From assembly GCA_025362035.1 (NCBI GenBank), contig JANYIN010000074.1, forward strand, positions 104,238-168,237: a stretch of 64,000 nucleotides of DNA. Reading direction: 5' to 3'. Source of the stretch: Gemmatimonadaceae bacterium. Its GTDB lineage: Bacteria; Gemmatimonadota; Gemmatimonadetes; Gemmatimonadales; Gemmatimonadaceae. Shown one piece after another: positions 47,793 through 52,777 of the stretch. A model generated the notes under the pieces. The model saw nothing but the letters and a program-made list of their open reading frames with translations. It was not told the DNA's origin and searched no databases. The translations under genes and the position numbers were made by a program. Each line of letters opens with the position of its first letter. The first letter of the stretch is position 1.

Positions 47793-49109
47793 ATGTCGTT
47801 TTTCTCGCTTGTGGCGCCGATTCAGGCGCGCTCGGCCCCATCGGTGCGCCGGCGCTTCGTCAGCCGCGCCGCGTTCACGGGCCTGGCGGTCGTCGGCGTG
47901 TACTGGTTCGCCGCACGACTGCTGATCCCGCCCGGTCCGGGGGTGGATACCGCCGTCGGGTTGGGCGTCGCCGCCCTTGTCGCGGTGGTGTCCGCCATCA
48001 TTGCGGGAGCGGAGCGGTACCTGAACACAACGGTTTCGATCCCAGCCACGGAACTCGCCGAAGCCGCCGAAGGGGTGGCGGCGGGAGACTTCACCATCCA
48101 GCTTCGCCATGTCTCGTCCGACGATGAAATCGGGCGTCTCGGACGCGCCGTCGGGGCAATGATCCTCGAGTTGCGCCGCCTCGCCGAGGCGATCGCCACC
48201 TCGGCGCTCGAGACGAATGCCATGTCGTCGGAAATCACGGTCAGCTCCGAACAGATGGCGTCCACGGCCGGCGAGATCGCCAATACGGCCAGCGACCTGT
48301 CCGGGCAGGCGACCTCGATGGCCGAAACGATCGCGACGCTCGCGGGTTCGGCATCAGCGCTGCAGATGCTCGCGTTCAACCTGGATGACGGGGCCCGCGA
48401 AGGGGTGGCCCGCAACAGCGCGTTGCGCACGCTCGCGAGGGAGAATCGCGCCGGGCTGGACGCAAGCGCCGAGTCGCTGGTGACGCTTGCCGGGGACGTG
48501 AACGAGAGTGCGGCCGCGATCGTGGCGCTCGGCGAGGCAAGTGAAGAAGTCCGGTCGTTCGTCACTCTCGTGCGCAAGCTCGCACGCCAGTCCAAGTTGC
48601 TGGCGCTCAACGCGGCCATGGAGGCTGCCCGTGCGGGCGCACAGGGCGCCGGGTTCGCCGTGGTCGCGGGAGAGGTACGACGGCTCGCGGCGATGTCGTC
48701 GGACGCCGCCGACCACACCGAGTCCATCGTGAACAGCGTACTGAAAGGCATTTCCCATTCGCGCGAATCTTCGGAGCGTGCGGTGATCACGGCAGAGCAC
48801 GTCCGGTTGGCCACGGCGCGAGCGACCGAATCCTTCACCGAGATCGAGCGAGCCGTAGCCGACGCGGAAGCGTGGACGACCGTCATCGAGCGCGCGTCCG
48901 CCGAGACGGGAGCGCTCGTGGGAGAAATGTCGGAACGCCTGGGGGTGCTGGCCGGCGGCACCGAGTCGTTCGCGGCAGCGATGCAGCAGGTGGCGGCGTC
49001 GAGTCAGGAGCAGAGCGCGAGCACGCAGGAGATCGCCGGATCGGCCAATGCGCTCGGCGCCGCTTCGGAACGACTATCGAAGCTGGTTGGTGGCATGAAG
49101 CATTCGTGA
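47793..49109 (+). CDS. Methyl-accepting chemotaxis protein without an obvious sensor domain
   Basis: Two TM helices, HAMP-like ELAEAAEGVAAGDFTIQLRHVSSDDEIGRLGRAVGAM, signalling tip KLLALNAAMEAARAGAQGAGFAVVAGEVRRLA. Confidence 0.9.
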   Translation: MSFFSLVAPIQARSAPSVRRRFVSRAAFTGLAVVGVYWFAARLLIPPGPGVDTAVGLGVAALVAVVSAIIAGAERYLNTTVSIPATELAEAAEGVAAGDFTIQLRHVSSDDEIGRLGRAVGAMILELRRLAEAIATSALETNAMSSEITVSSEQMASTAGEIANTASDLSGQATSMAETIATLAGSASALQMLAFNLDDGAREGVARNSALRTLARENRAGLDASAESLVTLAGDVNESAAAIVALGEASEEVRSFVTLVRKLARQSKLLALNAAMEAARAGAQGAGFAVVAGEVRRLAAMSSDAADHTESIVNSVLKGISHSRESSERAVITAEHVRLATARATESFTEIERAVADAEAWTTVIERASAETGALVGEMSERLGVLAGGTESFAAAMQQVAASSQEQSASTQEIAGSANALGAASERLSKLVGGMKHS

Positions 49110-49340
49110 GGGCGCGCTTCGGCGCTGCGCGCCTCGCTTTTCAGCCCGCTTCGGCGCTCCGCCCCTCGCTTTTCAGCCCGGCCGCTGACGCGGCCTCTTC
49201 GGCCAACGTTGAGCGGTTAACGTCGGCGCCGAAGAGCGAGGCGGCGCAGCCGCCGATGCGGGCCGAATAGCCGAAGAGCGAGCCGCGCAGCGGCGAGCGG
49301 GCCGAAGAGCGTTGGCGCGTCAGCGCCGACGCGCGCCGTG
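49110..49340. repeat. Structured repeat array A (inverted halves)
   Basis: Units such as gccgaagagcgaGCCGCgcaGCGGCgagcgg on + and their reverse complement (cgcttttcagcccg) on the left half; 49252-49302 matches 50736-50786 at 50/51. Confidence 0.85.
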
Positions 49341-49345
49341 CGTGC

Positions 49346-50554
49346 TCACTCCTTCGGTATCGACATCGTGCCCGAGATTGGCTTCCCCTTGGGGCGGTCG
49401 TCGCGCTTGTAGAGAAACGCCGACGGGATGCGTCGAGCCCCCTGCGCGTCGCAGACGACATAGCTGCTGCCCTCGTACGCGCAGGCGCCGGCGAAATCGC
49501 CCTTCTTGTTGATCGCGTAGAAGTTGAGATCGAAGTACGGGCGCCCGTTGTCGTCGAGCAGGCGTTTCTCCGTCATGGCGATCGTGCGCTCCATGACCTT
49601 CATGAGCGCCGCCTCCGGCGTCATGCCCATGCGCATGAACTCGACGGCCAGGAATGCGCCGCAGACCTTGATGTTGGCCTCGCCGCGCCCAGTCGATCCC
49701 GCCGCGCCGACGGTATTATCGCAATACTGTCCGGCGCCGATGATCGGACTGTCTCCCACGCGGCCGGGCACCTTCCACGACAGTCCGCTGGTGGTCGTGA
49801 CGGATGCGATGTCACCGCTGGCCGTGACGGCATTCATGTTGATGGTGCCATAGGTGTGCGGCACGCCGTGCTCATCGTGGAAGACGTGCGTTCCGTTGTC
49901 CTCGCCATGGCGAAATGCCGGCGCCCGCATCGAGGTTCGCGGCGGCCGCGTTGGTGTGGCGATGCGGACGTCGCCGTGATAGTCGAGATACGGATCGTCG
50001 GCATTCAGGTTGGCACGCCAGCGAAGCCAGTCCTGACGGCTCTTATCGGTCAGCAGGTTCTGCGGCGTGAACCCCATCTCGATGGCGAACTTCCTGGCGC
50101 CGGCTCCCACCAGCATGATGTGGTCGGTGTAGTCCATCACCGCCTTCGCGACCAGGGACGGCGTGGCGATGTCCTCCAGCGCCGCAACGGCGCCGGCGCG
50201 CTTGGTTGGCCCGTGCATGACACTCGCGTCGAGCTGCACCACGCCGTCTGCATTTGGCAGCCCGCCCAATCCGACCGACTGGTCCGTGGGATCGAGCTCC
50301 TGGATGTTCACCCCGGCTATGGCGGCATCGAGCGGGTCGGCGTTCTGCTGCGTCATCAGGTCGTAGGCGACCTTGGCTCCGCGAATGCCGTTATCGCTCG
50401 TCACGATGGCCGGACGGCCAGCAAAGGCGGCTGACGGCGGCGTCGCGCGATCCACCACACGGATGAACGGCATGCCGTCAGCGCGGCGCGGCAGGATGAG
50501 TCCGGCGGCGGTGACGGCGCCGGCGCCAAGGAAGTCGCGGCGAGAAATGGGCAT
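49346..50554 (-). CDS. Isoaspartyl peptidase/asparaginase family (glycosylasparaginase-like), Tat signal
   Basis: MPISRRDFLGAGAVTAAGLILPRR Tat-like signal; TYGTINMNAVTASGDIASVTTTSGLSWKVPGRVGDSPIIGAGQYCDNTVGAAGSTGRGE (Ntn-hydrolase Thr region). Confidence 0.9.
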   Translation of the reverse strand: MPISRRDFLGAGAVTAAGLILPRRADGMPFIRVVDRATPPSAAFAGRPAIVTSDNGIRGAKVAYDLMTQQNADPLDAAIAGVNIQELDPTDQSVGLGGLPNADGVVQLDASVMHGPTKRAGAVAALEDIATPSLVAKAVMDYTDHIMLVGAGARKFAIEMGFTPQNLLTDKSRQDWLRWRANLNADDPYLDYHGDVRIATPTRPPRTSMRAPAFRHGEDNGTHVFHDEHGVPHTYGTINMNAVTASGDIASVTTTSGLSWKVPGRVGDSPIIGAGQYCDNTVGAAGSTGRGEANIKVCGAFLAVEFMRMGMTPEAALMKVMERTIAMTEKRLLDDNGRPYFDLNFYAINKKGDFAGACAYEGSSYVVCDAQGARRIPSAFLYKRDDRPKGKPISGTMSIPKE

Positions 50555-50629
50555 TGAAGTAGGCTGCTGGAGGTGTAAGGAGTTGGCTAATTACGGTTGT
50601 GCGCGGGTAATGCGCCAGAAGCGCGGGGC

Positions 50630-50855
50630 CTGACGGCTCTTGAGCCCGCTCGCCGCCGCGCGGCTCGCTTTTCGGCCCGGCCGCTGCCGCGGCCTCTTCA
50701 GCCAAACGCAGTCGCTGAAAAGCGAGGCGCGGAGCGCCGATGCGGGCCGAATAGCCGAAGAGCGAGCCGCGGAGCGGCGAGCGGGCTGAAAAGCGCGAGC
50801 AAGCCGCGAAGCGGCGGGGCGAGCCGCCGCGCAGCGGCGAGCGCGCCGAATAGCT
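50630..50855. repeat. Structured repeat array B (inverted halves)
   Basis: Same unit family as array A: gctgaaaagcgagGCGCggaGCGCcgatgcgg, gccgaatagccgaagagcgaGCCGCggaGCGGCgagcgg; left half ctcgcttttcggcccg is in opposite orientation. Confidence 0.85.
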
Positions 50856-50869
50856 AGTAGTATTTCCCC

Positions 50870-52777
50870 ATGACATCTACCGCCACCACCGCCACACGCG
50901 ACGAACTTCGCTCCCTCAGCTTTCTCGAGGGCCTGACCGACACCGCGGTCCATCAACTCGCGCGGCTCGTTCAGGCCGTCGAGTACGACGTGGACGCTCT
51001 GCTCTTCGAGGAAGGAGGGCCCCGAAACTTGCTCGCGCTCATCGTGTCCGGCGCCGTAGCCATCGAAAAGGGCAAGACCGCCGCCCACCCGGTGCGGCTC
51101 GCCACCTTTGGCGCCGGCCAGGCGGTGGGGGAAGGACTGCTGCTCGACGACTCGAACCACGGCACCACCGCCCGCGCCCTGGTGAAGACCCGCGCTTTCG
51201 TCCTCACGCTCAGCCAGGTGCAGGACATGCTCAAGGAGACGCCGACCCTGTACGCGGCGCTCGTGGCGCGCGCTGGCCGGTCGATCAAGCAGCGCCTCTC
51301 CGTGGTGGACGCCACGCTGGTCGGGCGCGGCCGTGCCCTTGGCTTTGGTGGCAGCCGGACCCGCAAGGAGCGTGACCTCCTCGGCGAGCGCGATGTACCC
51401 GACGACGCGTTGTACGGCATCCAGACGCTGCGCGCGATGGAGAACTTCGCGATCACCGGCATTCCGCTCCGCGAATTCCCGGCGCTCATCGAGGCGCTCG
51501 CCGCGGTAAAGGAGGCGGCGGCGCTGTCGAATGCGGAACTGGGGCTGCTGCCAGCCGAGGTCTCCGATGTCATTGTTCGGGCGGCGGCGGAGATCCGGTC
51601 GGGCCGACATCACGAGCATTTCATGGTGGACATGATTCAGGGTGGCGCGGGCACCTCCACCAACATGAACGCCAATGAAGTGATCGCCAATCGAGCGCTC
51701 GAGCTCTCGAACCAGGCGCGGGGCGACTACACGTTCGTCCATCCAAACAACCACGTGAACCTCAGCCAATCCACCAACGACGTGTATCCCACGGCGGTGA
51801 AGATTGCCCTGCACACCGCCATCGAGCAGCTCCGCACCGCCATGCGCGAGCTCGCGAACGCGTTCCTGGCCAAGGGCACGGAGTTCGCGCCATTCATCAA
51901 GATGGGCCGCACGCAGCTGCAGGACGCCGTGCCCATGACGCTGGGACAGGAGTTCACCGCATTCGGCCACACGATGCTGGAAGACGTCGATCGCCTCGGT
52001 GAGGCACAGGCGCTCATTCGCGAGATCAACATGGGTGCGACCGCGATCGGCACTGGCATCAACGCCCCGCGCGGCTACGCCGAGGCGGTGCGCGCGCATC
52101 TCTCCCGGATCACCGGCCTGTCGCTGATCACCGCCTTCGACCTGGTCGAAGCCACGTCCGACACCGGCGCGTTCGTGCAGCTCAGCGGCGTGCTGAAACG
52201 ATGCGCCGTGAAGCTCTCCAAGATCTGCAACGACCTCCGGCTGCTCAGCTCCGGTCCGCGCGCTGGCTTCGGCGAGATCAATCTGCCGGCTATGCAGCCG
52301 GGCTCGTCGATCATGCCCGGCAAGGTGAACCCGGTCATCCCCGAGGTGGTGAATCAGGTCTGCTTCGACGTCATCGGCGGCGACATGACCGTCACCATGG
52401 CGGCCGAGGCCGGGCAGCTGCAGCTCAACGTGTTCGAACCCGTCATTGCATTCCGGCTGCTGGCGGGGCTGGGCGCGATGACCAATGCGTGCTCGGTGCT
52501 GCGGGAGCGATGCGTAAATGGGATCACGGCCAACCCCGATCGCATGCGCCAGTTCGTCGAGCAGTCGATCGGCATCGTCACGGCGCTCGTGCCGGTCATT
52601 GGCTACGAGGTCAGCACGGAGATCGCGCGCGAGGCACTCGCGACTGGGCGCGGCGTGTACGACCTCGTGATGGAGCGCGGGCTGCTCACGCGCGCGCAAC
52701 TCGACCACGCGCTCGATCCGCAAGCGATGCTTCGATCGATGACCCCGCCGCTCGGGACGCCGCTGCAGCAGGAGTAG
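50870..52777 (+). CDS. aspA: Aspartate ammonia-lyase with N-terminal cyclic-nucleotide-binding-like domain
   Basis: cNBD-like LRSLSFLEGLTDTAVHQLARLVQAVEYDVDALLFEEGG...GAGQAVGEGLLL; lyase motifs GERDVPDDALYGIQTLRAMENF, GAGTSTNMNANEVIANRA, STNDVYPTAVKIAL, GSSIMPGKVNPVIPE. Confidence 0.92.
   Translation: MTSTATTATRDELRSLSFLEGLTDTAVHQLARLVQAVEYDVDALLFEEGGPRNLLALIVSGAVAIEKGKTAAHPVRLATFGAGQAVGEGLLLDDSNHGTTARALVKTRAFVLTLSQVQDMLKETPTLYAALVARAGRSIKQRLSVVDATLVGRGRALGFGGSRTRKERDLLGERDVPDDALYGIQTLRAMENFAITGIPLREFPALIEALAAVKEAAALSNAELGLLPAEVSDVIVRAAAEIRSGRHHEHFMVDMIQGGAGTSTNMNANEVIANRALELSNQARGDYTFVHPNNHVNLSQSTNDVYPTAVKIALHTAIEQLRTAMRELANAFLAKGTEFAPFIKMGRTQLQDAVPMTLGQEFTAFGHTMLEDVDRLGEAQALIREINMGATAIGTGINAPRGYAEAVRAHLSRITGLSLITAFDLVEATSDTGAFVQLSGVLKRCAVKLSKICNDLRLLSSGPRAGFGEINLPAMQPGSSIMPGKVNPVIPEVVNQVCFDVIGGDMTVTMAAEAGQLQLNVFEPVIAFRLLAGLGAMTNACSVLRERCVNGITANPDRMRQFVEQSIGIVTALVPVIGYEVSTEIAREALATGRGVYDLVMERGLLTRAQLDHALDPQAMLRSMTPPLGTPLQQE

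Follow-up and report, generated by a model that had tools for sequence, protein, structure and literature searches.

Head-to-head intergenic arrays of GNA/GNNA-capped hairpins: a probable REP-like family of dispersed DNA palindromes in a Gemmatimonadaceae genome

Between two convergent genes of a Gemmatimonadaceae bacterium, one for a methyl-accepting chemotaxis protein (+ strand) and one for an asparaginase of the Asparaginase_2 family (- strand), a first-pass annotation had noted an array of short stem-loop repeats, the stems of which differ between units but still pair, and had recognised in them no named repeat family. What these repeats are, in which nucleic acid their fold matters and how they came to occupy this gap are the questions that the locus raises. 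They were pursued in the window (the whole stretch of DNA analysed, 64,000 nucleotides), in the 4.64-Mb assembly of 212 contigs to which it belongs (here G000) and in related genomes.

The array (array A) was recovered at the location given, with inverted and direct repeats as described, and a second array of the same family (array B) is equally real (Table 1); the asparaginase gene has arrays on both sides. Array B ends about 8 bp before the start codon of an aspA-like (aspartate ammonia-lyase-like) gene. The Rfam 15 covariance models gave no match at E <= 1 in positions 48900-51000, in agreement with the earlier remark on named families, and no description of this hairpin-array family was found in the open-access literature.

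Table 1. Positions in the window of arrays A and B and of their component units and hairpins.
Feature	Coordinates	Strand	Description
Array A, whole head-to-head hairpin array	49111..49337	.	occupies the whole interval from one convergent stop codon to the other
Array A, unit	49112..49145	-	GCTGAAAAGC-GA-GGCGC-GCA-GCGCC-GAA-GCGCGCC
Array A, unit	49144..49177	-	GGGGC-GGA-GCGCC, one mismatch
Array A, central hairpin	49180..49195	.	GGCCGC-TGAC-GCGGCC; on the - strand the loop is GTCA (GNNA)
Array A, centre	49196..49227	.	TCTTCGGCCAACGTTGAGCGGTTAACGTCGGC; orientation flips here (from the list of centres and the orientation strings)
Array A, unit	49228..49263	+	6-bp stem, GGCGGC-GCA-GCCGCC
Array A, unit	49270..49303	+	GCCGC-GCA-GCGGC
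Array A, terminal unit	49301..49337	+	GAAGAGC linker, then GGCGC-GTCA-GCGCC hairpin
Array B, whole array	about 50643..50860	.	between divergent asparaginase and aspA-like genes
Array B, unit	50643..50676	-	GCCGC-GCG-GCGGC; rare non-GNA loop
Array B, central hairpin	50679..50694	.	GGCCGC-TGCC-GCGGCC; on the - strand the loop is GGCA
Array B, unit	50714..50747	+	GGCGC-GGA-GCGCC
Array B, unit	50754..50787	+	GCCGC-GGA-GCGGC
Array B, hairpin	50803..50815	+	GCCGC-GAA-GCGGC; from sequence and fold
Array B, hairpin	50826..50838	+	GCCGC-GCA-GCGGC; from sequence

A typical unit reads GCYGAARAGC-GA-stem-GNA-stem-GA(T/A)-GCGGGC and is repeated with a period of 32 bp, or of 40 bp where an extra GAATAGCC-type linker is present. 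The flanks are constant, as had been reported, but are better written as GCYGAARAGCGAG on the left and as GA(T/A)GCGGGC, rather than GAnGCGG, on the right. Likewise, all four stems named by the first-pass annotation are present, but the one placed at 49177-49196 in fact occupies 49180-49195 and represents another module, devoid of the GCGAG flank. Unit stems were GGCGC/GCGCC in 39 cases, GCCGC/GCGGC in 13, GCTGC/GCAGC in four and GGCGGC/GCCGCC in two, together with nine 2-bp GC/GC stems and, besides the main types, a few mismatched hybrids; the shortest units, with the 2-bp stem, hold an exact GCGAAGC heptamer. Other modules with the same linker display longer stems and GNNA loops (e.g., GTGCC-GCCA-GGCAC and GCCGC-GGCA-GCGGC). 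On either side of the stem GA is conserved, which would permit tandem G-A pairs through which the helix could reach the outer GC pairs.

In the aligned units, 96.6% of the stem cells were paired, compared to 86.4% in shuffled controls and 19-61% (at most 61.4%) when the alignment was slid, and 17 cells had changed on both sides, compared to 7.8 in controls; stem pairing is thus better than expected by chance. Of the five stem pairs, one alternates between C-G and G-C (13 versus 13 distinct sequences) and one between C-G and T-A, while two are invariant and in the remaining pair one side alone changes. The claim of compensatory stem changes holds, resting on these two pairs and on three main stem types.

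The conserved part of the hairpin is the loop, the first and last bases of which are held while the interior drifts. Among perfect hairpins with a stem of at least 5 bp, triloops in the arrays conformed to GNA in 72/80 cases, compared to 28/216 in the 176 kb of surrounding sequence used as background, and tetraloops to GNNA in 26/32, compared to 32/254. Combined, 98 of the 112 short array loops were of these two types (background, 13%), and 96 of these 98 were closed by a C-G pair; the middle base of the GNA loops was G in 37, C in 22, A in eight and T in five. These counts include related copies, so that a nominal Fisher p-value overstates the evidence; a stronger argument is the variety of loops found on one and the same stem, GCCGC, which carries GCA, GGA, GAA, GGCA, GTCA, GCTA, GGGA, GGTA, GTGA, GCCA and GTTA. 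In the arrays of a congener, G006, GNA accounted for 21/23 triloops, and tetraloops were not enriched for GNNA (3/10), so that the loop rule there rests on triloops.

Where a GNA or GNNA loop caps two or more G-C pairs, the resulting DNA mini-hairpin is extraordinarily stable and resists nucleases; one of them, GCGAAGC, melts at 78 C (PMC4686876). By sequence, the array loops fall into this class. With the d(GCGNAGC)/GNNA mini-hairpins of Hirao and Yoshizawa (cited in PMC4686876) they share the loop class, the C-G closing pair and the GCGAAGC heptamer itself; those, however, are laboratory oligonucleotides, whereas here the motif occurs naturally, at the conserved core of a genomic repeat.

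Alternatively, the hairpins might exert their effect in RNA: as terminators working in both directions, as stabilisers of mRNA 3' ends or as sites of processing. In support, the arrays lie between genes, often directly against a stop codon, the covarying stems would be paired no less well in RNA, and REP-type repeats are often located downstream of genes (PMC3733652). The terminator-only and mRNA 3'-end readings are nevertheless weakened by gene context. According to gene calls made by a simple script, the 21 classifiable arrays or single units, all of them intergenic, lie between divergent genes in seven cases, convergent genes in six and co-directional genes in eight (chi-square p 0.37), with no excess between convergent genes, and array B is located upstream of two divergent genes. 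Furthermore, no T-run was seen after the arms on reading the sequence, and there was no match to an Rfam family. In RNA, GNRA loops need a purine at the third position; in the array GNNA loops this base is C in 17, T in four, G in three and A in two (C/T in 21/26), a departure from the GNRA type by which a DNA fold is favoured over RNA. The loop class thus appears to favour DNA, while being compatible with RNA, and we consider a role in RNA to be unlikely. Of the earlier proposal that selection acts on a folded RNA or DNA form, the folded form is supported, and the evidence points to DNA.

Among 23 arrays, 12 contain units in both orientations, and in 12/12 these are arranged as reverse units, a centre and forward units, with the linkers facing the centre; every two-sided array read in G006 is head-to-head likewise. 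Units are tandem within an arm and the two arms meet at the centre, which makes the whole array a large imperfect palindrome. In array A (orientation string <<<>>>) the end arms, 49111-49127 and 49321-49337, are 94% complementary inverted repeats. A MITE would combine terminal inverted repeats with a target-site duplication, and the congeners are too diverged to define such a duplication. The best predicted single-stranded DNA (ssDNA) fold of this array is one long hairpin pairing the two arms, and not a series of small hairpins; the ssDNA folds of arrays A and B were far more favourable than those of shuffled sequences (z -6.0 and z -5.25, respectively). The GGCCGC-TGAC-GCGGCC module in the middle of array A recurs at other array centres.

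Array centres also hold AAC...GTT motifs which, along with the flanking of the asparaginase gene by arrays on both sides, are reminiscent of the recombination sites (attC) of integron cassettes. By eye, however, no matching RYYYAAC/GTTRRRY boxes with the spacing of attC were seen in the centres; some neighbours are housekeeping genes, such as those for EF-P and RrnaAD, and arrays adjoin genes in all relative orientations. We attach almost no probability to this explanation. The array centres of G006 (L136-L149) read GGCAAC...GTTGCC, with CAAC/GTTG-rich variable middles, unlike the AACG-rich centres of G000.

The dispersed intergenic copies anticipated by the first-pass annotation were indeed found. 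A covariance model (R1) built from 38 units gave 62 matches in G000, and the unit pattern GAADAGCGMGSSSCGNAGCSSCGA, allowing up to two mismatches, gave 66 matches compared to 0 for a reversed control, which excludes chance. These copies make up about 25 loci, arrays and single units taken together, a total derived from targeted searches, and are intergenic wherever genes could be called. Seven contigs (C94, C139, C104, C181, C190, C92 and C166) start or stop within or near an array; the arrays therefore break the assembly, their true number is probably higher and longer ones are probably missing. Strain duplication, suggested by two rsmD-like genes beside arrays, was rejected, as the two proteins are just 46% identical.

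In a wider genome collection the G000 unit pattern had four isolated matches and no arrays (one stretch recurring in Cryobacterium species accounted for three of them, a single hairpin in an Acidobacteriaceae genome for the fourth), and viral contigs yielded no matches. As for weak matches of the covariance model in other genera, most of the six shown looked like non-array sequence. A generic stem pattern, GCGAGC-N3-5-GCGAGC, was not enriched over its reversed control in the relatives, so that the short modules are not countable genome-wide.

Three congeners (G001, G006 and G007) contain the same hairpin core with other linkers. The linker tag is GAARAG in G000, RTAAG in G006 and GTCMAG in G007 and in the few copies of G001. 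Accordingly, GCGGGCYGAARAGC occurs 116 times in G000, compared to 39 for the control, and near or below the control level in the nine congeners; GCGCCCCRTAAGC occurs 83 times in G006 and 8-20 times elsewhere, and GSCCCGTCMAGCGAGCG 29 times in G007 and 0-4 times elsewhere. The linker is the species-specific part of the unit, while the hairpin core is retained among congeners.

Different array loci of G000 align with one another solely inside the arrays, over up to ~200 bp including the centre. At the site orthologous to array A, the two stop codons in congener G004 are separated by 10 bp, and the array B site is empty in G001, G004 and G007. These empty sites, and others that are differently filled, imply that arrays entered this lineage, or disappeared from others, as whole units; neighbouring genes were left undamaged. 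Together with the confinement of similarity to the arrays, they indicate that the arrays spread as DNA. In G006 the array A site (L115 ~2690-2860) holds an unrelated palindrome, GTCATCCCGCA...TGCGGGATGACA with GAGCGTAGCGAG inside, and the array B site, upstream of the asparaginase gene on L115, an unrelated inverted repeat of GGCTGCGGCTGCAGC-type units. The array A gap may take up palindromes repeatedly.

Such spread could have required no enzyme. Template switching and slippage at palindromes might have expanded the arrays neutrally, and the loop rule would then merely reflect that only well-folded hairpins can be copied. A search for the PF01797 domain revealed no transposase in the four genomes with array cores, and the mixed stems (GGCGC with GCGGC) and the variation in unit number in 32- or 40-bp steps suggest recombination within arrays. 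On the other hand, whole two-arm arrays complete with centres at unlinked sites, and one dominant tag per species, are harder to obtain without a dedicated activity, and neutral expansion therefore seems to us rather improbable.

The other extreme is that these are classical REPs moved by RAYT (TnpA-REP), a Y1 transposase. Several traits agree with REPs: the elements are dispersed between genes and specific to a species, they form head-to-head dimers, and each hairpin, of the ssDNA type, has a tag directly on its 5' side (PMC3733652, PMC8266576). In REPs, GTAG occupies the position of the IS200/IS605 guide sequence and is read by the Y1 enzyme (PMC8266576); the tag of the arrays lies at the same position. 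A GTAG or GTGG tag 0-2 nt 5' of the hairpin is, however, absent, GAARAG, RTAAG and GTCMAG being found instead, and Y1_Tnp/RAYT (PF01797), the kind of transposase which the first-pass annotation had thought worth seeking, was not found in the array-bearing G000, G001, G006 and G007, the assemblies of which are 76-93% complete. The domain is present in G005 and G008 alone, where no array core was found. Mobilisation by RAYT is thus very unlikely, and as both GTAG and PF01797 are missing from the core-bearing genomes, the arrays are not classed as strict REPs.

In a broader sense, high-copy short palindromes that are intergenic and head-to-head, here 62 and in 12/12 two-sided arrays, are what defines REP/BIME elements, and the species-specific families are a further likeness. 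The differences, besides tag and transposase, are the tandem same-orientation units within each arm, which are rare in REPs, the variation of the tag between congeners with the hairpin kept, and the restriction of loops to GNA/GNNA. Nor is a dedicated transposase known for the CGTC-tagged REPs (Di Nocera 2013, including RPE and dRS3; PMC3733652), and CGTC is found directly 5' of the hairpin in the linkers of G007. Those REPs have an 8-9 bp stem starting with A/T, a loop of 4-5 nt and a CCA tail, whereas in the present units the stem is 2-6 bp plus the outer GC, the loop has 3-4 nt, and neither a stem of that kind nor a CCA tail occurs; CGTC is confined to G007-type units, the tags of G000 and G006 being different. 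Palindromic selfish hairpins of sponge and Volvox mitochondria likewise proliferate between genes with no obvious enzyme, in another host and with other sequences.

We conclude that these dispersed, non-coding arrays of palindromic DNA hairpins probably represent a new family akin to REP/BIME, which is probably either passive or mobilised by an enzyme. Its unit is a linker tag 5' of a short hairpin, GC-GA-(2-6 bp stem)-GNA-(stem)-GA-GC, or GNNA in other modules. The relevant fold is most likely the DNA hairpin, which would form when the region is single-stranded (on the lagging strand, during repair or transfer) or when a cruciform is extruded; with a GNA/GNNA cap, even the 2-bp stem of GCGAAGC is stable. 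The arrays would then copy into intergenic sites as DNA, conceivably by way of the single-stranded hairpin, and units would subsequently be gained, lost and exchanged within them. The tag, as the fast-changing part, may guide this copying, matched to a protein or target that mediates it; alternatively, each species may have amplified its own founder. A more specific version, which we put forward as a tentative possibility, is a RAYT-independent class of mobile ssDNA hairpins in which GNA/GNNA serves as the handle and the swappable tag as a specificity code, and in which an enzyme other than Y1/RAYT copies head-to-head arrays.

Being natural and present in many copies, the arrays are suited to testing whether DNA mini-hairpins of very high stability arise inside cells and have any importance there. 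They also pose the question of what copies REP-like repeats without RAYT, and why sister species change the tag and not the hairpin; the cognate protein becomes a tractable target, since the tag swap allows the genes of G000, G006 and G007 to be set against those of array-free congeners.

The aspA-like gene beside array B (window 50870-52777) encodes an aspartate ammonia-lyase/fumarase-type enzyme with an N-terminal cyclic-nucleotide-binding domain (PF00027, PF00206, PF10415). This fusion of PF00027 to an ammonia-lyase/fumarase looks unusual; in a tblastn search with the enzyme, several congeners matched from residue 3-7 onward, which suggests that the fusion is common to them.
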